Shown piece by piece: positions 4,537-20,760 of a DNA stretch of 22,087 bases; the stretch's first letter is position 1; each line of letters opens with the position of its first letter. The notes beneath the pieces are model-generated. The model saw only the letters and a list, made by a program, of their open reading frames with translations, was not told the origin of the DNA and ran no database searches. The stretch is from positions 1 through 22,087 of the IMG/VR virus record IMGVR_UViG_3300020202_000581; one strand, written 5' to 3'. The position numbers were made by a program, and so were the translations under genes. This stretch comes from a virus.

Positions 4537-6807
4537 ATGATCGAGAAACTCACCACCCGAAGCGACCCCGAGCAACAGATGCGGGACCTGATCAGCCGGA
4601 CGCTGACCCTCCGCGCCGATTCCATTGACGAATCAACCCGCTCCATTGAAGCCGTGATGGCGACGGAAAACCCGGTTGCCGTCTTCGATTGGGAGCGATG
4701 GGAGGTCATCGACGAAGTTCTCAGGATGGACGGGGCGGGCATTCCTGAACAATCGCCGCTCCTCGAGAACCATCGCCGCTATTCCACGGACGACGTTCTG
4801 GGAAGCGTCCGAAACATCCGCCGCGAGGGCGATCAACTCATCGGCCGGATGTATTTCGACGACGAAGACCCGAAGGCGATCAGAGTCTGGAACAAGGTGA
4901 AGAAACGCCACATCCGAGATGTTTCCATCGGATACCGCACCACGGCTTTTGAAGATATCCCCCCCAATACACGCAAGTCCGTCGGCGGCCGCGATTATGC
5001 CTCGGGTTCCCGACGGCTTCGCATCACCACTGGATTTGAAATTCGAGAGCTTAGCGTCACTCCGATCGGAGCTGACCCCAAAGCAAAAACCAGGCGAGAG
5101 GTCGTTCCTCCGCCGCAGTTGCCGGCTGACGTCGGCAGGAGCGTTTTTATGAATCCTCAATTGAGGACGTTTCTGGAGTCGCTCGGCCTGCGGACCGACG
5201 CCAGCGAAACAAGTGCGCAGGAATTCCTGAACCGGCTCACCGGCGATCAGCGGCAGCGTGCCGACGCGATCGCGGCCGGTACGCTGCAACTTGCCGACGC
5301 CATGCGGGCGGAGATTGCTGCGGCCCGAACCACAACCCCGGCTCCCGCGCCAGAACCGGCTCGCGCGACTCCTGCGGCCCCGTCCGCTCCCGCGCCCATC
5401 GATCCGGAAACGGTTCGCGCCGAAGGGGCGAGAGCCGAACGCCAGCGCATCGCCCGCGTGGGCGAGCTGGGCGAAACCGCCGACGCCCCGGCCGAGCTTC
5501 GCCAGCGGGCGATCGCCGAAGGGTGGGATGAGCAGCGAGCCGCCGTGGAGTTCCTGAATCACACCCGATCCAGCCGAACCCCCGCAGTCGGCTCTGATGC
5601 CCCTGCCGGCATCGTGCGCAATCACGAGCGCGATTGCACCCAGCGCAGCCTCGGCCTCGCTCTGGCCATGCGTTCCGGCGTGGACGTGGAGAAGTGGGCG
5701 AAGCGCGGCAAGGTGCAGGGCTGGGAAAACCTCGCCCAGCGTGCCGACCGCTACAGCGACATGAGCTTGATCGACATCTGTCGCGAAGCTCTCCGCATGG
5801 ACAACCGGGAAATCCCGGTGACGCGCGACGAGACGATTCGCTCGGCAGTGTCGGGCGGATCGCTCACCAAAATTTTCACCGATTCGGTCAATGCCATGCT
5901 CCTCCAGGCTTACGAGGAAGAGCCGGATACGACCGTTTGGGTTGAGGAAGGCGAAGTCGCCGACTTCAAGACCAACACCGACATCCGATTCGCTGGCAAC
6001 GCCGCCCTGAAGAAGGTCGGACGCGGCCAGACTGCGGACCATGCGGCCTCGGAAGATTCGGCCGAGACTTACAAGGCTGCCCGCTACGCGAGGCAATTCG
6101 TCGTGGACGAGCAGGACATCATCGACGACAGCATGAATGCCCTCTCGCGGATGCCCCAAGAGATGGGTCAGGCCGCGCGACGCCTTCGCCCCGACCTCGT
6201 TTATGCGATGATCCTGGCGAATCCGACGATGGCCGACACCGGCGCCGTCTTCAACAGCACGGCCCTGACCACGGCCGGCGGCCACGCGAACAGCTTCAAT
6301 GACGCCGCGACTGCGGTCGGCGGCCCTCTGGCGGCTGGAACGCTCCAGCTTCTCATCACGAAGATGCGCCAGCAGTATCGCGGCTCTGGCCGCAACAAGG
6401 TCCCGCTGAATATCGTCCCCCAGTTCCTGATCGTTCCCCCTGAACTGGAGTTCACGGCGAAGATCCTTGTCCGGTCGGCCGAGCGCGTCGTTTCGAGCAG
6501 CGATGGCACGTTCAACCCGCTCCAGGGCATCGTGCAGCCGATCGTCGAGACTCGTCTCGGCACCATCGGCGTCACCGACCCCGACAGCGGAACCGCCTAC
6601 ACGGGCCTGGCAACCAACTACTGGCTCGCCGCCCGCAAGGGTCTTCACGCAAAGGTCGTGTATCGTCGCGGAACCAATCGAGCACCGCAGGTCCGAAGCT
6701 TCACGCTTCAGCAGGGCCAGTGGGGCATCGGCTGGGACATCAACCATGATATCGGCGCGAAGTTCATCGACTTCCGCGGCATCTCGTATGCCAAGGGCGC
6801 GGCGTAA
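4537..6807 (+). CDS. prohead protease - major capsid protein fusion
   Basis: One 756-aa frame carries both the maturation protease and the shell protein. Residues 1-190 are an HK97-type (S78) prohead protease: LLENHRRYSTDD holds the probable catalytic His79 and RHIRDVSIGYRTT the Ser130. Residues 205-300 look like a scaffold or delta region with an Ala/Pro-rich stretch (TTTPAPAPEPARATPAAP) and a charged coiled segment. From about 350 onward the protein reads as a major capsid protein, with an E-loop-like part (VWVEEGEVADFKTNTDIRF) and a Mu gpT-like core (FVVDEQDIIDDSMNAL, RRLRPDLVYAMILANPTM). Self-cleavage around residues 200-380 would be expected to free the shell protein. Fusions of this kind are known in other tailed phages. 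There is no internal stop or obvious second start. The gene begins 3 bp after the portal stop. Confidence 0.9.
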   Translation: MIEKLTTRSDPEQQMRDLISRTLTLRADSIDESTRSIEAVMATENPVAVFDWERWEVIDEVLRMDGAGIPEQSPLLENHRRYSTDDVLGSVRNIRREGDQLIGRMYFDDEDPKAIRVWNKVKKRHIRDVSIGYRTTAFEDIPPNTRKSVGGRDYASGSRRLRITTGFEIRELSVTPIGADPKAKTRREVVPPPQLPADVGRSVFMNPQLRTFLESLGLRTDASETSAQEFLNRLTGDQRQRADAIAAGTLQLADAMRAEIAAARTTTPAPAPEPARATPAAPSAPAPIDPETVRAEGARAERQRIARVGELGETADAPAELRQRAIAEGWDEQRAAVEFLNHTRSSRTPAVGSDAPAGIVRNHERDCTQRSLGLALAMRSGVDVEKWAKRGKVQGWENLAQRADRYSDMSLIDICREALRMDNREIPVTRDETIRSAVSGGSLTKIFTDSVNAMLLQAYEEEPDTTVWVEEGEVADFKTNTDIRFAGNAALKKVGRGQTADHAASEDSAETYKAARYARQFVVDEQDIIDDSMNALSRMPQEMGQAARRLRPDLVYAMILANPTMADTGAVFNSTALTTAGGHANSFNDAATAVGGPLAAGTLQLLITKMRQQYRGSGRNKVPLNIVPQFLIVPPELEFTAKILVRSAERVVSSSDGTFNPLQGIVQPIVETRLGTIGVTDPDSGTAYTGLATNYWLAARKGLHAKVVYRRGTNRAPQVRSFTLQQGQWGIGWDINHDIGAKFIDFRGISYAKGAA

Positions 6808-9451: not shown

Positions 9452-10372
9452 ATGTCCGTTTCCAATACCTTCAAGCTGCACGCGATCGTGACGCCCGATG
9501 CGCAGATCAACCAAGTGACTGCCCGACGGATCGACCCCGGCATTCAGCGCATGCTCGTTGGCGGCAACGGCGTTTTGACGGCGCAGATGATCGTCCGCAT
9601 GAGCCAGCGGCCACTGATGTCGATCACGACGACGGCGGTGAAGCGCGTGCTCGACATGATCAGCATGAAGGGCAAGGCGTACACGGCTGCGGCGTGCAAT
9701 ATGTACTTCGGGAAGAAGGATGCCGGCGGGGCGCTCGTGGCCGGGGCAAATCACCTTCAACTGGACTTCAACCGAAGCCTCTGGATTCCTCGGACGCTGC
9801 GGGCGTCGCAGGATGGGCCGGCCGAAATCGACGTGGACATTTACGCAATTTCCGCCAATGGCACCGCTTCTCCCCTGACCGTCACCAACAGCGTCTCCCT
9901 TCCCTCGCTCACGGCGGCGGATCAGCTCTTTACGCTGGGCCCAGCCAAGTTCAACGGCGGGTCGCTGATCGGGACGTTGCGGGAATTGTCGCTGAACTTC
10001 GGGATCTCGGAACGGCTCATCTCCGGAAGCGGCGAGGAGTGGCCGACCTTTGGCAGCATCGACAAATACCAACCCTCCGTCCGCCTCTCCTGTTACGACC
10101 TCACCCAGCTTGCCTCCCCTCTCACTGTGGGCGGCCTGGCCGTCAGTTCAGCGACGAAGGCTTTCCTCCGCGCCAAGTCGCAGGAGGGCGGCAACGTCGC
10201 CGATGCGACGACTTCGCACCTCTCTTGGACGATGACCACGCTCGGCACGATCGACCCTGGCATGATCGACGAGAGCGACGACGGCGAGAGCATGCTTAAT
10301 ATCGACTGGACGGCCGGCGATGACGGGACCAACGACCCGCTCATCTACGGTAGCGCAGTAGCGATCTCGTAA
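9452..10372 (+). CDS. major tail tube protein candidate
   Basis: 306-aa beta-rich protein with long stretches of alternating residues (TFKLHAIVTPDAQINQVTA, NHLQLDFNRSLWIPRTLRA, EIDVDIYAISANGTASPLTV, LIGTLRELSLNFGISERLI) and acidic, Gly-rich loops, ending in LIYGSAVAIS. Such composition, together with a strong AGGAGA ribosome site (9440-9445, 6 nt before ATG) and position upstream of the assembly chaperone and tape measure, points to the protein that stacks in hexameric rings to make the tail tube. Tube proteins are usually 150-300 aa, so this one is at the long end and may carry an extra surface domain. There is a 34-bp gap to the next gene with no hairpin. Confidence 0.68.
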   Translation: MSVSNTFKLHAIVTPDAQINQVTARRIDPGIQRMLVGGNGVLTAQMIVRMSQRPLMSITTTAVKRVLDMISMKGKAYTAAACNMYFGKKDAGGALVAGANHLQLDFNRSLWIPRTLRASQDGPAEIDVDIYAISANGTASPLTVTNSVSLPSLTAADQLFTLGPAKFNGGSLIGTLRELSLNFGISERLISGSGEEWPTFGSIDKYQPSVRLSCYDLTQLASPLTVGGLAVSSATKAFLRAKSQEGGNVADATTSHLSWTMTTLGTIDPGMIDESDDGESMLNIDWTAGDDGTNDPLIYGSAVAIS

Positions 10373-10406: not shown

Positions 10407-10604
10407 ATGAAAACGCAGTATGTCGCCGCGCGCGAGCTCGGCATCGACGGGAAGATCATCAAGAAGGGTGAGCCGCTGATCACGGCGGAGACGCCTGAAG
10501 GCATTCCGGCGGAACGAGCGATTAACGCGATCGCTCGGGGGTTCGCCGTTCCCCAGGCTGAAACACCGGTGATCGAGACGTCCGCGGAAGGGGCTGGCGA
10601 GTAA
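10407..10604 (+). CDS. small protein between tail tube and assembly chaperone
   Basis: 65 aa, preceded by a clear TAAGGA (10395-10400). It has a VAARELGIDGKIIKKGEPL segment, which recalls short phage proteins with an initial strand, the IxGKxxxxGE turn, and a helix (AERAINAIARGFA). The acidic tail ends AEGAGE. The stop overlaps the start of the chaperone gene (TAATG at 10602-10606). I do not recognise a defined function; a small tail or head-decorating accessory is possible. It is almost certainly expressed because of its ribosome site and coupling. Confidence 0.6.
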   Translation: MKTQYVAARELGIDGKIIKKGEPLITAETPEGIPAERAINAIARGFAVPQAETPVIETSAEGAGE

Positions 10605-11293
10605 TGTTTCTATACTTCATCCCCGGCGCCTCCGGCCAGCTTCCCCCCGAAAAGGCAAAGGAAGTCGGCATCGGCTATGCCCTGACCGGTAAGGGGGTCA
10701 TCCCTGGTCAGTGCGGCCGCGGTCCAGACGGCGGCCCCGGCATCCTCTGCGCCATTGAAGGCGCTCCCCACCCCAACCCGATCTATGCCCCCGCCGACCA
10801 GACTTGGGTAAAGGGGCCGGGCGGAAAGTATTGGGCGGGCTTCAACAATGCTCAGCGGCCGACGCCGGACCTGCTCGCGCGCGATAAGTTCATCGCTGGT
10901 GACAAGGTGAAGCTTCGGGACGGGCATGAATGGACCATTCCGATTGCCCGATCTTTCGTTCGCGGCTCGGCTCTCCCGCAGGAGCTTTCGCTGGGGGAGG
11001 ACGGCCGGACGTGGGAACTCAAGACCCTCCCGGAGTACGTCAGCCTCTGTGCGGATGCGGAGAAGGTCTGGGAAGGCTTCGGCGCAGTGGCGGCCGGCGG
11101 AAAATTCGAGATCGATGATCAGGAGTTGATTCGCATCGCCGTTGACGCTTTGGGCGTGAACTACCGCGTCTCCGCCGTCGAAGTCTCCATGCTCCGCCTC
11201 CTCTCCACCGCGGAGATGTGGCTGATCCTTCGGGCAATGGTGGACTGGAACAGTGTAATCAAGGCCGCGGAGGCCGCCCAAAAAAAAGAGTGA
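10604..11293 (+). CDS. tail assembly chaperone, short form (gpG analogue)
   Basis: 229-aa protein in the slot of lambda gpG, between tail tube and tape measure. It binds the tape measure and recruits tube subunits during tail assembly and is not expected in the virion. The N-terminal half is Gly/Pro-rich (IPGQCGRGPDGGPG, VKGPGGKYWAGFN), and the C-terminal half is helical, with a segment typical of chaperones (KFEIDDQELIRIAVDALGVNY, then RLLSTAEMWLILRAMVDW). The frame ends GAG TGA directly after eight adenines, and a second open frame continues at -1, so this is the product of non-shifting ribosomes. Identification rests on the frameshift arrangement and order rather than on recognisable homology. 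Confidence 0.72.
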   Translation: MFLYFIPGASGQLPPEKAKEVGIGYALTGKGVIPGQCGRGPDGGPGILCAIEGAPHPNPIYAPADQTWVKGPGGKYWAGFNNAQRPTPDLLARDKFIAGDKVKLRDGHEWTIPIARSFVRGSALPQELSLGEDGRTWELKTLPEYVSLCADAEKVWEGFGAVAAGGKFEIDDQELIRIAVDALGVNYRVSAVEVSMLRLLSTAEMWLILRAMVDWNSVIKAAEAAQKKE

Positions 11294-11403
11294 CCGGGCG
11301 CTGGCTGACGTACGTCCGCTGGCGCAATGGCCAGCTTCCCGGTTATGTCCCGACGTTCGCTGATCTCCGCTGGCTCGCCGACGAATTGACTCCCACCCGC
11401 TGA
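10604..11403 (+). CDS. tail assembly chaperone, -1 frameshift form (gpGT analogue)
   Basis: Predicted 266-aa product made when ribosomes slip back one base on A AAA AAA at 11281-11287. Residues 1-228 come from the zero frame; 38 residues follow from the -1 frame (RVTGRWLTYVRWRNGQLPGY, ending LADELTPTR), read from 11287 to TGA 11401-11403. The extension is Trp/Arg-rich and has proper codon usage with no internal stop. It ends 4 bp before the tape measure ATG, as in lambda-like tails where the T part contacts the tape measure. The ratio of the two forms is normally critical for tail assembly. The extension has no convincing start of its own. Confidence 0.72.
11281..11342 (+). promoter_or_regulatory. 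programmed -1 ribosomal frameshift signal
   Basis: Slippery heptamer A AAA AAA (11281-11287, within an A8 run from 11280), followed by G. The zero-frame stop is two codons later (TGA 11291-11293). Six nt after the slippery site a two-part hairpin begins: CCGGG (11294-11298) with CCCGG (11338-11342) and GCTGGC (11300-11305) with GCCAGC (11330-11335), separated by a small internal loop (C against TT). The 24-nt apical loop itself contains the palindrome GACGTACGTC (11307-11316). Spacer length and stem strength are those of classic -1 stimulators. Confidence 0.75.
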
Positions 11404-11407
11404 ATCC

Positions 11408-12958
11408 ATGCCGCAAGTAACCTTTGAAATGAAGGCCGACGAGGCCCGCGTAGTGCAGGCGTTTTTGAACGTCCAGCGCGCGGAGGGGAAGGCCGTCGAA
11501 GGGTTCAAGGCGATCAAGAAAGAGGCCGACGCTGCGGACAAGGTCATGGCCAAGCTGGGGAGCACGGCGAAAAGCATGATGTCGGGGCTGCTGGCAAGCG
11601 CCGCCGCAGTCGTAGGCTTCCAGCAAATCCGACGCGAGATTGAAGCGATCATCCAGCTTCAGGAGCGGGCAGCGCGGCAACAAGTGACTGTCTCCGCCGC
11701 GAGGCAGGAAGTTATTCGCAATATGGTGGGATCGAGCGACGCCGCCATTCGTGGCGTTCTCAAGTCCTCCAGCGGCATTGCGGCCGAGACCAATGTCGGC
11801 GAGTCCACAATCCTCATGGCGATGGCGCAGGCCCTGTCGGCGTCAGGGGGCAATGCCGCCGTCTCCGTCAATGCGGTGCGAGGCGCGGCCAAGTTCCTCC
11901 CCGAGCGGCCCAACGACATCCCTGAATTCGCCGGCACGCTGCTGGACCTGCGCCGGGCGACGGGCTTTCAGGATGCCGAATCGAATCTCGGCCTACTCCA
12001 GTTCATCGGCGCCCAATCGCGCGTCACCGACCCCGGCAAGCTGGCGCGATCGGCGCCGGAAGCCCTGATCGGCGTGAAGGCGATGGGTGGCACGTTTCAG
12101 GAGGGCGCCGCCCTCTTCTCGGCCATTACGACCGGGTCGGCAGACGTCGAGGGCCGCAAAAGCGCGACGGCGACGATCTCGCTGGCCACGCAACTCCGTG
12201 ATTTCTTTCAGAAGCAGGGACGAAAGGGGACGACGGGGGAATTGATCTCGGCTTTGCAGGCGAATCCCGCAATGGGCCGCGCCTTCATGGACTCAGCATC
12301 CTTCGAGAAGCAAGCCCTCGGACCAATCGAACAGCTTCTGCTCAATCCATCCTCGGATATGGCGGCGTCCTATGCGCAATTCGAGAGGCAGATCCCCACA
12401 GATCCCGCCGTGTTGCGGAAGGTGACGACGGAATCCCTCCGACAGCGCGGCCTCGATCCTCTGGAGTTCGTCGCAGGGACGGAGCGAGCGTTCGGATCGG
12501 CGTCGGAGCGATTGTTGACTGGGGATCCGCTGGCCGGGCTTGGCGGCGTCACTCGTGGCGGACTGATGAAGGTGCTCGCCGATGGCGGGATGGGTGATCT
12601 GGCGGGGAAGTTTGCTGGGGTGGAGTTCGAGGCGAGAACTGGCGCGGGGAGCATGAAGGTGACGGACGCAGCAATCACCATGCTGCGACGGGAAGAGCAG
12701 GATCGGCGCACGCCTCGTTATGAGGAATCACCAGGACTCGGCGGTTTCGGAGGCGCTCCGTTCGCCGTCGATCCATCCAACGAAAGCATTCGCCAAGCCG
12801 ACATCATCCGCGACCTCATCGGCCAGCTGGAAAACACGAAGAAGCTCGCCGAGGCCGTCGAGAAGATGAACAACGCCGCGGCCGACCTGAAGACCGCCGC
12901 TGCCGCCCTCAGCAAGAAAGCCGTGGATCACAACAATCCTGCTCAGCGGGGACGATAA
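11408..12958 (+). CDS. tail tape measure protein (short)
   Basis: 516-aa, mostly helical protein rich in Ala, Gln, Glu and Lys that probably sets tail length. The N-terminus (MPQVTFEMKADEARVVQAFL, then a helix to residue 50) is typical of tape measures. A hydrophobic segment (MMSGLLASAAAVVGF, residues 57-71) could insert in the host membrane during DNA ejection. The C-terminus is a heptad-like helix (LENTKKLAEAVEKMNNAAADL). At about 0.15 nm per residue this would give a tail near 77 nm; this is an estimate from the general rule. No Shine-Dalgarno is visible before ATG 11408; the -1 frame product stops 4 bp upstream, so its translation may depend on frameshifting ribosomes. Its stop is directly followed by the next ATG. 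Confidence 0.82.
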   Translation: MPQVTFEMKADEARVVQAFLNVQRAEGKAVEGFKAIKKEADAADKVMAKLGSTAKSMMSGLLASAAAVVGFQQIRREIEAIIQLQERAARQQVTVSAARQEVIRNMVGSSDAAIRGVLKSSSGIAAETNVGESTILMAMAQALSASGGNAAVSVNAVRGAAKFLPERPNDIPEFAGTLLDLRRATGFQDAESNLGLLQFIGAQSRVTDPGKLARSAPEALIGVKAMGGTFQEGAALFSAITTGSADVEGRKSATATISLATQLRDFFQKQGRKGTTGELISALQANPAMGRAFMDSASFEKQALGPIEQLLLNPSSDMAASYAQFERQIPTDPAVLRKVTTESLRQRGLDPLEFVAGTERAFGSASERLLTGDPLAGLGGVTRGGLMKVLADGGMGDLAGKFAGVEFEARTGAGSMKVTDAAITMLRREEQDRRTPRYEESPGLGGFGGAPFAVDPSNESIRQADIIRDLIGQLENTKKLAEAVEKMNNAAADLKTAAAALSKKAVDHNNPAQRGR

Positions 12959-13363: not shown

Positions 13364-15664
13364 ATGTCGGTAATTACCGGATTCATCTCGCCCTTTCCCC
13401 GGTACAGGGTTCTCCTGCGCGAGAATTGGGCGGACGAATGGCAAACGCCGAGCCAGCTATTCAACGTCTTTGATGACGTTCTCCAGCCCATCCGCGCAAC
13501 GCAAACGGTCGGTCCGTCGATCCCAACCGCGACCTTTCTCTGGCGGTGGGGGCGCATTAAGTGGGAGCGAAGCCCGGTCTATCTCGAATACGACATTCTA
13601 TCGGAAGTCGGCGCGTACGGCGTTCGGATTATGGATATGTTCGTGCGCATCGATGCGGCGACGGGCGACGAGGCGAACCCAACTTATAAGCCAATCTGGG
13701 TTGGAGTTTTTGGCGGCGACGAACGAGATATTCTTGGCGGACAGGCTGGCGATCACGGCGCGGGGAATCAAACGTTGACCGCCTACGGGCTCGAATATTT
13801 GCTGGATCGAACGGACATCGAATGCGCATGGTTTATGGAGGGCCTAGCGAAATCCGCTCGGATGAACGTTGTTCCGCCTTTCAATGAGCGCTATGTCAGA
13901 GGACTCCAGGAAGTCGGCAACCGCTCAATCAATCAGACATTCAGTACGGCATCCAACAAGCACCGGACCTACCTCTTTTCGGGAGACAATGAGGTATGGA
14001 GCGGACTTGACATCCTCAATTATCTGCTTGCGCATTATCAACCGAAGGGCGTCGATTTCCGTGTTGCACCCGTCGGAGAGGAAGAGACGGAGACCGGGCA
14101 GCATCAAGAGCTCGATAAGCTGACGCCCGCTAGATTCGATGTGGCTGGCGAGACAGTTCTCTCTGCGATCAATCGTCTTATCGACCGTCGGCAGGGGCTT
14201 GGCTGGACAATTCGATATATCGCCAGCGAAAACGGCGATGAGGACGAGGCGCGGATCCACGTGTTCTCAGTCATCGAAGAGGACGTCACTTTATTCGAGG
14301 ACAGCGGCGGGGAAGAAGAGGATGCAGACCCAGAGACGATACTGCCCGCGAATCTTGAACTCATTGAAACTTACTCCATCAGCGGCCTGTCGCCCGAGCA
14401 AGTCACGCAAATTAAATCGTCCACCATCCGCTATGAAAGAATTCATGTCATTGGCGAACCGATCCGCGTAATGTTTTCGCTCTGGGGCGCCAATGCGGGC
14501 ATAGCCTCAACAGAGCTCCCAAGCCAAACGCTCGACAAGGGATGGACATCCACAGAAGAGGCTGCGTATTTGGCGGGAGTCACTACAGGAACGCCGACCC
14601 AGGAAGATCACGACAACTACCGCGGAAGCGATACGTTCCGTCACGTTTTCACGACCTTCGTTCCCCATTCTTCTTTTGATTTTAAGCCGAAGGCGTGGCG
14701 CACAGCGACGGGACTATCGCCAAAGATGACCGCTGTTGCCATCTCGATTCAGGACGACGGTAAGATCGTTCCTGGCACCGCCTCTAAGATTCGTACTTGG
14801 CATCACGCCCGCGCCTTTGAAGACCATCTACTCATTCGGGGTCCTTCAGGAAGTGCGACGATAGGGGAATTGCTGCCGCCTTTGGCGCTAATCAAGACGC
14901 CGCGAGTAAAGAGCGGTGGGACGATTGGGTATGTCCACGTTGACAGGCTTGACGGCCCGGATGTCTCCCCCGCGCATGTGAGAATGCTTGATCGCAAGAT
15001 GGGCGTCGAGATTCATTTTTCTCCGAATCATCTGGCAGCCAAGAATCAATGGACGGGAACAATCGCAAGCTCCTCGTCCGGAGCTCCGCTTGAGTGGGAA
15101 TCTCTGATTCTCACGGTGGCAACAAAGCTCGATGAATGCCTCCGTTTCGTCGTGCAGGATGCCGCCCCGACGCCGCTTACGGACGAGGAGGCCCGCAATC
15201 GGCCGGACCCATTCCCAACTCTTACGATCCGCGTCTCCGGTGCCCATCTTTGGTGGATCTCGCCGGGCACCGTGAAGGGCGTCAACGCCGATGGAACGCT
15301 CAACTATTTCGACCCCGAAGCACTGGTTAAGGATTACTACGATGAGGAGACGGGAGAGGTGTCGGCAAGTCCGGGTTGCGTCATCCGAAACGATATCGAT
15401 CGCCTGAAGCGGATCGGCCGTTTTGCAAAGGCGTGGTATGCGCGGGACCGATCCGCCATGATCGTTCGTGTCCGCGAAATGCTGGTTGACGATGACCCCG
15501 AATCCCCGCTCAACCTTGCGCCCGGCAATCTGGTGGCGCAGTTCCAAAACGAAGTCCACCTCTATCAAGCCAACACCATCGTAACAGAGCGGGAGTGGGA
15601 TTTTCTCGCAGGGACGACCCAAATAACGACGGGCTATGTCGAGCTCGACTTTGTGAATAGGTGA
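13364..15664 (+). CDS. tail hub / tip protein
   Basis: 766-aa protein, the largest of the tail module, in the position of tail-tip hubs (gp27/J-like). The N-terminal 450 residues are beta-rich with conserved-looking turns (IKWERSPVYLEYDILSEVGA, YKPIWVGVFGGDERDILGG, LTAYGLEYLLDRTDIECAWF) in the style of hub proteins that describe a local coordinate (the W-x-G-V-x-x-G motif occurs in many). The middle has an acidic stretch (EDSGGEEEDADPE). The C-terminal part is mixed and ends in strands (DFLAGTTQITTGYVELDFV). Likely contacts the tape measure and carries the receptor-binding or cell-wall-opening parts. I cannot see a peptidase or lysozyme motif. Starts 3 bp after the preceding stop. Confidence 0.7.
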   Translation: MSVITGFISPFPRYRVLLRENWADEWQTPSQLFNVFDDVLQPIRATQTVGPSIPTATFLWRWGRIKWERSPVYLEYDILSEVGAYGVRIMDMFVRIDAATGDEANPTYKPIWVGVFGGDERDILGGQAGDHGAGNQTLTAYGLEYLLDRTDIECAWFMEGLAKSARMNVVPPFNERYVRGLQEVGNRSINQTFSTASNKHRTYLFSGDNEVWSGLDILNYLLAHYQPKGVDFRVAPVGEEETETGQHQELDKLTPARFDVAGETVLSAINRLIDRRQGLGWTIRYIASENGDEDEARIHVFSVIEEDVTLFEDSGGEEEDADPETILPANLELIETYSISGLSPEQVTQIKSSTIRYERIHVIGEPIRVMFSLWGANAGIASTELPSQTLDKGWTSTEEAAYLAGVTTGTPTQEDHDNYRGSDTFRHVFTTFVPHSSFDFKPKAWRTATGLSPKMTAVAISIQDDGKIVPGTASKIRTWHHARAFEDHLLIRGPSGSATIGELLPPLALIKTPRVKSGGTIGYVHVDRLDGPDVSPAHVRMLDRKMGVEIHFSPNHLAAKNQWTGTIASSSSGAPLEWESLILTVATKLDECLRFVVQDAAPTPLTDEEARNRPDPFPTLTIRVSGAHLWWISPGTVKGVNADGTLNYFDPEALVKDYYDEETGEVSASPGCVIRNDIDRLKRIGRFAKAWYARDRSAMIVRVREMLVDDDPESPLNLAPGNLVAQFQNEVHLYQANTIVTEREWDFLAGTTQITTGYVELDFVNR

Positions 15665-18713: not shown

Positions 18714-19628
18714 CTAGCACTCATATCCCAAATCCCGCGCCGCGTCCCAAAAATCGTATTCGTGAACGAGCAGCATCTTTCGCCCCTTCTTGCGCCACTC
18801 CATGGCCTGCTCAACCTTTCGGCCGTAGCACGAATAGGCCCAGCACGGATTGCCGTCAGCACCGATCACCAGGTAATCGACTTCTTGGCGGAGGTTGTCG
18901 GAGAACTCACCTCCGAGATGCGCAACGATTTCGGCGAGCTCCTTCCGCGTGCATTTCTCTGACGAACCGGTGAAACAAAAGAGCCGGCTGACGAACTCGA
19001 TGTCTGGGCACACCGCACAGAGCCCGGTGATTGGGGTTTCCCCCTCGTTCAACGGAACGGTCAGTGCTCTGACTGGTCCAACGTTGCAGAACTCCGAAAA
19101 GAACCGGATGAGAATCGCATGCTCTTTTGCGTCGATGAACTTGTCGGCGCGCATCCCGACCAGCAGGGAGTAAATCTCATCGAATGGCCAGCATCCCTTA
19201 AGGAAATCCTGCTCGGTCATCCATGCCGACAGCTTGTCGAGCTCGTCCATGCTGATGACGTGATCGGCGGCAATGCCTGCAAGGATTCCGTGAAGCGACT
19301 GCATCGCGCACGATGCGGCATCGTAGTACGGCTTCTCTACCGTCAGTTTTTCAGTCAGCCAGAGAATGTCGGCGAGTTCCTCCCCATCGAAGATTCCATC
19401 AGAAATCGCCGCCCTTAGTGTGGGGATGATCTCGTTGAAGGGATGTCTCTTCTCTAGATTCTCGTGCTCGCGAATCCAGCATCGCACCAGACTCATTTCG
19501 TCATCCGTGACGGTGCTGTCGGCGCCGATCCCCTTCAACACTCCATGGAGCGAGTTCATTGCCTTATCGAGCCGAGCCGGCCCCGTGAAATGAAAATACT
19601 CTTTCCGATCTGGATGCACCGTTCCCAC
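18714..19628 (-). CDS. tandem helical-repeat plus BRCT protein
   Basis: 304 aa. The C-terminal part (about 212-300) is a BRCT domain: LFCFTGSSEKCTRKELAEIV, HLGGEF, DYLVIGADGN and the closing WRKKGRKMLLVHEYDFWDA match ligase-type BRCT order. BRCT domains bind DNA ends, phosphopeptides or PAR. N-terminal residues 20-96 and 107-181 are two copies of one helical unit (AMNSLHGVLKGIGAD / AMQSLHGILAGIAAD, PFNEI / PFDEI, then acidic DxxxDxxE), recalling TerB-like helical domains. Starts at GTG 19628 with AAAGGTGG about 5 nt upstream; GTG 19619 is an alternative. The stop TAG (18714-18716) is next to the GGAGG of the zinc-ribbon gene, so the two are an operon. Phage-related BRCT proteins of this build exist, but I do not know a proven function. 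Confidence 0.84.
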   Translation of the reverse strand: MGTVHPDRKEYFHFTGPARLDKAMNSLHGVLKGIGADSTVTDDEMSLVRCWIREHENLEKRHPFNEIIPTLRAAISDGIFDGEELADILWLTEKLTVEKPYYDAASCAMQSLHGILAGIAADHVISMDELDKLSAWMTEQDFLKGCWPFDEIYSLLVGMRADKFIDAKEHAILIRFFSEFCNVGPVRALTVPLNEGETPITGLCAVCPDIEFVSRLFCFTGSSEKCTRKELAEIVAHLGGEFSDNLRQEVDYLVIGADGNPCWAYSCYGRKVEQAMEWRKKGRKMLLVHEYDFWDAARDLGYEC

Positions 19629-19767
19629 GTTCCCACCTTTCTTCTTCTCCCGCCTTCACTTACCGAAATGTTCACGACCCTCTAAACAAATCCCGCTCTC
19701 GACCCTCTTGACGTTAGCGAATTGTTAGGGCAGAGTAAGCTCATCAATTTCATAGGAGGCTTCAGCA
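19629..19767. promoter_or_regulatory. divergent control region between BRCT operon and metallopeptidase
   Basis: 139 bp with genes leaving in both directions. It holds a strong AGGAGG (19754-19759) 8 nt before ATG 19768 and, for the other strand, an AAAGGTGG before GTG 19628. A 9-bp direct repeat CGACCCTCT occurs at 19675-19683 and 19700-19708 (25 bp apart), a possible regulator site. TTGACG at 19708-19713 could be a -35, but I see no good -10 at the right distance. Promoters are therefore not assigned. Confidence 0.4.
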
Positions 19768-20337
19768 ATGAAGTTCCGTGTTGGACCGCACCTGTACCGC
19801 GTAAGGATTGCGCGGAAGTTATCCGATGGAGCGGGACCAGCATTCGGGCTCTGGGATTTCGAGAACCAAGCCATTTGGCTCGACGGCGAAATGCCTGTGC
19901 GTCGTCGATGGCACGTGCTACTGCACGAATTGAAGCATGCTTGGCGCCACGCGATGGGACGCCCCGACGATGACGAAGGGGACGCCAACCAGTCGGCCAG
20001 CTTTGCCGCCGACGTGCTTCGACAGTTGGCGAATCAGGGAGGAGAGATGGCGCTGATGCGTTTGACGGAGGATGGGGTTGTCGATCATACGGCCGTCGCG
20101 GAGGAGCCTGGTGAGCCTCGCGCGGCACAATGCCCAGCATGCAACGGGCTCTTGAACTTTCCGATTCGCACGGCCCCCGCGCAGTTTGACCCGAAGTGGA
20201 ATCGGCTGGTCGCGACCCGAGCGGCCGACTGCGATTATTGTTCGAGGATGGTTTCATGGACTGAGGCCGTGACGACGACGGGCATCCCTACTGGCGTCGT
20301 CCTTTCCGGCCCCCTTTTGTGCGCGTTGCCCGCATAG
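19768..20337 (+). CDS. ImmA/IrrE-like metallopeptidase with C-terminal zinc ribbon
   Basis: 189 aa. The HExxH motif HELKH (53-57) in WHVLLHELKHAWRHAMG, followed by an acidic run (DDDEGDANQSASF, with a likely third ligand around residues 69-72), is that of ImmA/IrrE peptidases. ImmA cleaves its partner phage repressor to induce the element; IrrE cleaves a stress repressor. An additional C-terminal zinc ribbon (CPAC at 122-125 and CDYC at 155-158) is not part of the minimal family. ATG 19768 has a full AGGAGG. The gene is convergent with, and overlaps by 50 bp, the 3' end of the helix-turn-helix repressor, strongly suggesting a peptidase-repressor pair, though the convergent layout differs from the usual co-directional immR-immA operon. 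Whether it cleaves that repressor is inference. Confidence 0.82.
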   Translation: MKFRVGPHLYRVRIARKLSDGAGPAFGLWDFENQAIWLDGEMPVRRRWHVLLHELKHAWRHAMGRPDDDEGDANQSASFAADVLRQLANQGGEMALMRLTEDGVVDHTAVAEEPGEPRAAQCPACNGLLNFPIRTAPAQFDPKWNRLVATRAADCDYCSRMVSWTEAVTTTGIPTGVVLSGPLLCALPA

Positions 20338-20710
20338 CGGCAATCGCCGGGTTGATTTTTCCGAGCGTGTCGATCAAGCGATCCCGGTCGATGCCAAACA
20401 CTTCGACGACCTGATTCAACGTTTCGATTTCGATGGGCGCTGGCAACGGATGGCCAGTGCTCTTTTTGTTTGCCTGAGCCTCCTCCTCCTGCTGCCACGC
20501 CAATTCGAAATCCGCCAGCGTTACGCCGAAGGCGCTGGCGTATTTCTCGCGGTCTTCGACGTTGGGAATAATCTTTCCATTGACGTGCCGAGAGACAGTC
20601 GGCCGAGAGAGACCCGTTTTCACCATCAGGTCTTTTACCCGTAGCCGCTTCATCTCCATAAATTTTTGCAACGTGTCAGAGATAGCGCCCACGCTCTGCA
20701 CGTAACTCAT
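20288..20710 (-). CDS. helix-turn-helix phage repressor (XRE-type)
   Basis: 140 aa from ATG 20710. The helix-turn-helix is in the N-terminal half: MKRLRVKDLMVKTGLSRPTV, then SRHVNGKIIPN, and AFGVTLADFE closes the domain, the usual five-helix XRE fold. The C-terminus is an acidic hinge (AWQQEEEAQANKKS) and a short helical tail ending in TRTKGGRKGRRQ; there is no LexA-type peptidase domain, consistent with removal by the neighbouring metallopeptidase. ATG 20743 in frame would add 11 residues, but these use AT-ending codons unlike the rest and would place the operator on the start codon, so I prefer 20710. The gene is divergent from the ribbon-helix-helix gene across two operator-like elements. 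It is likely the lysogeny repressor. Neither start has a clear ribosome site. Confidence 0.82.
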   Translation of the reverse strand: MSYVQSVGAISDTLQKFMEMKRLRVKDLMVKTGLSRPTVSRHVNGKIIPNVEDREKYASAFGVTLADFELAWQQEEEAQANKKSTGHPLPAPIEIETLNQVVEVFGIDRDRLIDTLGKINPAIAAMRATRTKGGRKGRRQ

Positions 20711-20742
20711 TTCTACATCAAGAACAAGAAGAGAGTCGCCCA

Positions 20743-20760
20743 TGATTCAGATTTGATTCA
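20743..20760. promoter_or_regulatory. operator-like element 1
   Basis: TGATTCAGATTTGATTCA: two copies of the 7-bp palindrome TGATTCA (TGA n TCA) whose starts are exactly 11 bp apart. Compare element 2, which differs at 2 of 18 positions. It lies 33 bp upstream of the repressor ATG (20710) and just upstream of the -35 of the rightward promoter, as expected of a site bound by the adjacent repressor. Confidence 0.68.

Follow-up and report, generated by a model that had tools for sequence, protein, structure and literature searches.

The locus described here lies on a virus record of 22,087 bases (IMGVR_UViG_3300020202_000581, positions 1 to 22,087; hereafter the window) and is probably a tail chaperone pair of the lambda type, in which a -1 shift on a run of adenines joins a reading frame G to a short frame T, the ribosome being the machine that shifts in the window. 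Most translation would end with G (229 aa), and in a minority of events the -1 shift on the A-run would give G-T, a product in which the 38 residues of T replace the last codon of G (GAG). On the model of lambda gpG and gpGT, the role of G would be to coat the tape measure protein, and that of T to recruit the tail tube subunit. The shift in the window would consist of tandem tRNA-Lys slippage on A_AAA_AAA, aided by the adjacent stop, a hairpin and perhaps an upstream GGAGG; in most relatives the polymerase would slip on a run of nine adenines (A9) and produce mRNAs with one extra A, which would then be read normally.

The junction of G and T in the window

The 3' end of G reads GCC CAA AAA AAA GAG TGA, and its stop codon (TGA, 11291-11293) is the second codon past the heptamer A_AAA_AAA, which conforms in frame to the slippery pattern X_XXY_YYZ (Table 1). 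The run of eight adenines (A8) is the sole A or T run of at least seven nucleotides in the 22 kb. T comprises codons 11287-11400 and a stop at 11401-11403, translates as RVTGRWLTYVRWRNGQLPGYVPTFADLRWLADELTPTR, and is separated by 4 nt from the ATG (11408) of the next open reading frame. The slippery site, the nearby stop, the 38-codon extension and the 4-nt gap are all located where the earlier note on this DNA had placed them.

Table 1. Features at and around the G/T junction, in positions of the window
Feature	Position	Strand	Remarks
G, tail assembly chaperone	10604..11293	+	229 aa, zero frame; profile homologues in 62 other loci; fold match
GGAGG, SD-like	11269..11273	+	7 nt ahead of the heptamer; weak candidate for a stimulator
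A8 run	11280..11287	+	heptamer A_AAA_AAA at 11281-11287, zero frame
T, -1 frame extension	11287..11403	+	38 codons and stop; motif RW..GQLPGYVPTFADL; leave-one-out T profile
GTG in the T frame	11290..11292	+	overlaps the G stop; rival separate start; missing in several relatives
Downstream RNA hairpin	11290..11346 (core 11294-11342)	+	RNAfold; z about -1.4 to -2.1; synonymous-null p 0.02-0.12
Probable tape measure protein	11408..12958	+	516 aa; iterated profile link to the ORF downstream of G elsewhere

Elsewhere in the window, the gene at 9452-10369 sits where a tail tube gene would, an identity that is putative. Prohead protease and major capsid protein are fused in one ORF at 4537-6807 (PHROG major head and protease protein, E 6e-85). 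The right end carries leftward genes (18714-20743, - strand), among them those for a 304-aa protein with a C-terminal end that appears BRCT-like by eye and for a 151-aa HTH-like regulator.

A family of G homologues with a conserved T domain

Scans against Pfam, NCBIfam and PHROG gave no useful match for G or for the tape measure candidate of the window, those against Pfam and PHROG gave none for T, and the neighbouring tail proteins of G likewise matched no Pfam, NCBIfam or PHROG family; the earlier note had held that the chaperone is not recognisable by sequence. Searches of phage records by tblastn with G and with the proteins of 9452-10369 and 13364-15661 found no match, and a scan of viral contigs with these three single proteins yielded no confirmed relatives. 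Because an alignment of seven G sequences was too diverged for a pattern scan, related loci were reached by way of the capsid-protease fusion, in viral contigs and in Planctomycetota genomes, and a G profile was applied to those loci and then to sampled Planctomycetota genomes. Further G homologues, 62 in number, were found in virus contigs and Planctomycetota genomes, mostly 25-40% identical; in an alignment of 18 sequences the identities to G of the window are 24-36%. With the window included and L032 omitted as identical to L031, 63 homologues are counted, and their junctions are complete in 59, those of L005, L028, L054 and L129 being cut by a contig end.

Of the 59 complete junctions, that of the window among them, 44 place T in the -1 frame after a slip-prone sequence. 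An A-run is present in 40 of these 44, with nine adenines in 32, ten in four (L006, L011, L088, L104) and eight in four (the window, L108, L114, L116), and never with seven. The remaining four have no A-run and use a canonical heptamer, G_GGA_AAA in L058 and L089 and G_GGA_AAC in L100 and L111. Runs of at least nine adenines number 36 in the 458 kb of loci (same strand), and every one of them is found at the G/T junction.

The earlier note had regarded relatives with a broken A-run or a closed -1 frame as decisive against the signal. Neither condition refutes it. In the relatives checked, a broken run is replaced by G_GGA_AAN or by a separate start, or T is missing, and the -1 frame is open across T in every A-run member except L120. 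The separate start is that of L014 and L016, which have neither A-run nor heptamer and in which T begins in a frame of its own at an ATG that shares bases with the G stop (TGATG; L014:10781-10783 and L016:14844-14846); in these close relatives, which have lost the slippery site, G and T seem to be two distinct proteins. L120 has eight adenines near the G stop and T in +1, i.e. one A short of the usual nine, and this relation is either a homopolymer error or a real variant, which could be served by polymerase slippage only. A recognisable T is absent within the searched stretch of 12 loci (L024, L056, L098, L106, L107, L109, L115, L118, L121, L122, L124, L126), all of which lack an A-run close to the 3' end of G; in L118 a TTTAAAA is followed by no T. 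Carrying T is therefore not universal among G homologues. Six of the T-less loci group together in the tree (94/87).

Where it is present, T is about 32-72 residues long and shares the motif RW..GL.P.Y.PT..DL. A T profile built without the window ranked the T of the window best of 548 frames with an E-value of 2e-14, the runner-up being at 0.1. Next to no credence is left by this conservation of the -1 frame, and by the occurrence of all 36 long A-runs at the junction, for the idea that the run, which encodes Lys-Lys, is a lysine-rich protein feature beside a frame open by chance; that idea is refuted. It is scarcely more credible that A8 results from a single-base mistake in assembly or sequencing and that G-T is really one ORF: homopolymers are error-prone, and the frame relation in L120 is off by one base, but the same -1 relation in 44 junctions, four of them without a long A-run, refutes an error for the family. 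T might also be a separate small protein started at the GTG of Table 1 and translationally coupled to the G stop (GTGA), as the overlap of this GTG with the TGA and the arrangement in L014 and L016 would allow. We consider this very unlikely. The T frame of L080 is without any start codon, so that T can be reached there by a change of frame only, and ATG, GTG and TTG are all missing between slip site and T motif in L021, L031 and L039; the T start codon that overlaps the G stop in L014 and L016 is not conserved. Furthermore, no Shine-Dalgarno (SD) sequence stands at proper spacing before the GTG, and conservation of the A-run would be without reason.

The identity of G was approached through its structure, which was predicted from an 18-row alignment (pLDDT 92.6, pTM 0.87). 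In BFVD the model has a single significant match, to a protein annotated as a tail assembly chaperone (E 2.4e-4, probability 1.00), with TM-scores of 0.32 (query) and 0.50 (target), and the other named chaperones in BFVD gave insignificant matches only. A fold search against the PDB found no significant match, and a second look found nothing above Z 2.6. Since the TM-scores are moderate, the fold match is support rather than proof. The ORF after T belongs, by iterated profile, to one homologous family in nearly all loci. The L021 member of this family hits PF10145 at 3e-6, which is below the curated threshold of that Pfam family, and a tape measure family of PHROG at 6e-6; the window's own protein gave no direct profile hit, and its identification as a tape measure protein is probable. 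About 500-600 nt lie between G and the start of the tape measure homologue in L097, L101, L102, L104, L105 and L106, enough for one additional gene of ~155-190 aa to fit between T and that homologue.

Conservation of T, the family of the next gene, the A-run and the fold predicted for G together strongly support a lambda G/GT-like chaperone with a -1 extension, and thereby bear out the arrangement that the earlier note had proposed. The G homologues make up a new sequence family within a known kind of system, the lambda-type G/GT chaperones.

Ribosome or RNA polymerase

The ribosomal requirement for A_AAA_AAA is met by seven, eight or nine adenines, depending on where in the codon the run starts, and codon phase is invisible to RNA polymerase. 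Run length in the family is nearly the same in all three codon phases (means of 8.8, 9.0 and 9.1), and members with more adenines ahead of the two lysine codons have fewer behind them (r = -0.79). In a permutation that treats members as independent, though the loci are related, none of 100,000 rounds gave so little spread of run length across codon phases. Shared ancestry is unlikely to account for all of this constancy, because the identities of G to the window are low (24-36%, as given above) and the branches of the tree are long. For Baranov et al. (2005, PMC1088944) a conserved run of nine adenines among homologues speaks for transcriptional slippage, slippage at nine adenines is efficient in vivo (PMC5009743), and in some bacteria A8 runs are slippage-prone too (PMC1088944).

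The hairpin, which the earlier note had counted as part of the signal, is indeed predicted by RNAfold as a two-part fold that begins 6 nt past the heptamer, with pairs of CCGGG (11294-11298) with 11338-11342 and of GCUGGCU (11300-11306) with 11329-11335 and a possible outward extension, but it is not conserved in the A9/A10 relatives. Even in the window it is only marginally better than chance: 9 of 200 dinucleotide shuffles were equally good (z -2.1), and p was 0.02-0.12 against synonymous-codon recoding of T. A conserved downstream hairpin was looked for across the family and not found, the A9/A10 members (n=36) being at background level (mean z70 of -0.54; control -0.23). The four G_GGA_AAN members have a mean z of -3.2 (p 0.002 versus A9/A10), and the hairpin of L100 is very strong (z -4 to -6). 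The hairpins of the window and L100 involve one shared stretch but pair different 5' arms, and are therefore not counted as covariation. The 10-bp palindrome GACGTACGTC in the hairpin loop (11307-11316), to which the earlier note ascribed a possible extra fold or dimer, is present but unremarkable, given that the window contains 31 such palindromes where about 22 are expected; as a special feature it was rejected. The hairpin is thus the weakest part of the signal and the A-run the most interesting. Upstream of the slip site, SD-like 5-mers occur in 15 of the 44 members, with 8.3 +/- 2.1 expected from codon shuffling. This enrichment is modest and part of it could come from codon content; it counts against a purely transcriptional view.

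The near-constant A9 whatever the codon phase, together with the missing hairpin, makes RNA-polymerase slippage the more likely mode in the A9/A10 relatives, i.e. in most of the family, and the strong hairpins of the G_GGA_AAN members point to ribosomal slippage. The claim of the earlier note that the A-run is a ribosomal slip signal is favoured for the window, whereas in most relatives the run points to RNA polymerase. On the tree, the G_GGA_AAN members need four separate label changes, at least two of them forced by well-supported branches, which suggests repeated switching between slip classes on a tree whose deep forks are poorly resolved and with a G_GGA_AAN class of four.

The main rival for the window itself is slippage of the polymerase on A8, by which a minority of mRNAs with nine adenines would fuse G and T without any slip of the ribosome; the fusion protein would be identical to the ribosomal -1 product, with the peptide AQKKRVTGRW at the joint in both cases. 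We regard this as possible, if on the unlikely side. It draws on the A9 runs of the relatives and their independence of codon phase (fewer than 1 in 100,000 permutations), on the A9/A10 members without a downstream hairpin, on the reading of conserved A9 as its mark (PMC1088944), and on L120, whose T in +1 could be reached by the polymerase (or results from a homopolymer error) and not by -1 ribosomal slippage. Against it stands the A8 of the window, which is generally below the efficient threshold, as do the hairpin and the SD-like GGAGG. Moreover, the best-supported sister of the window in the tree, L100 (99/93), has G_GGA_AAC and no A-run, and must therefore shift on the ribosome. From the length of the run, the hairpin at 6 nt, the upstream GGAGG and this sister, ribosomal -1 frameshifting is most likely in the window; slippage of the polymerase would be its chief rival or make a contribution. 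Several points weigh against the explanation as a whole, namely the marginal hairpin of the window with its pairs unlike those of L100, the fixed run length in the family, the slippage-prone A8 runs of some bacteria, the 12 loci without T, and the failure of Pfam, NCBIfam and PHROG to recognise G and of Pfam and PHROG to recognise T.

Known systems and the biology of the family

The slip site of lambda is G_GGA_AAG, and four relatives of the window come close to it with G_GGA_AA[A/C]. The tail assembly chaperones gpG/gpGT of lambda and their relatives have been reviewed (PMC5009743, which cites Xu, Hendrix and Duda 2004), and the gene order in lambda is G/GT/H (PMC5009743). The family of the window likewise has its chaperone just before the tape measure gene, a slip site near the end of G that leads into a -1 frame extension, and a T that stops at the start of the tape measure gene. 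It differs in having no detectable sequence similarity to catalogued chaperone families, a short T and, in most members, an A-run without hairpin.

Among cellular genes, dnaX of E. coli uses a ribosomal frameshift at A_AAA_AAG with an upstream SD and a downstream stem-loop (PMC5009743), and the window has a comparable Lys-Lys slippery site, a downstream hairpin and an SD-like GGAGG upstream; in dnaX, however, the shift yields a shorter product at about 50%, while in the window it would extend the protein. Transcriptional slippage at nine adenines is known from dnaX of Thermus thermophilus and from IS elements (PMC1088944, PMC5009743), to which the family is similar in its A9 of conserved length and in the lack of a conserved RNA structure, and from which the window differs in having eight adenines. 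The two dnaX genes provide a precedent for homologous genes that use either machine. In the open-access literature we found no report of transcriptional slippage in phage tail chaperones.

These comparisons supply functional names for an uncatalogued cassette of G, T and tape measure genes in phages and prophages of Planctomycetota, for which Pfam, NCBIfam and PHROG have no matching model. For this phage family as a whole, we see an evenly balanced case for a G/G-T ratio that would be set mainly by polymerase slippage on A9, in which lineages would have switched repeatedly to and from a ribosomal G_GGA_AAN with hairpin and the window would stand in between. If A9 does act on RNA polymerase, a ratio that controls the length of phage tails would be set at transcription, and with homologues in which the ribosome does this work the family would, like dnaX, amount to a natural experiment on how a protein ratio persists through a change of the machine that sets it.
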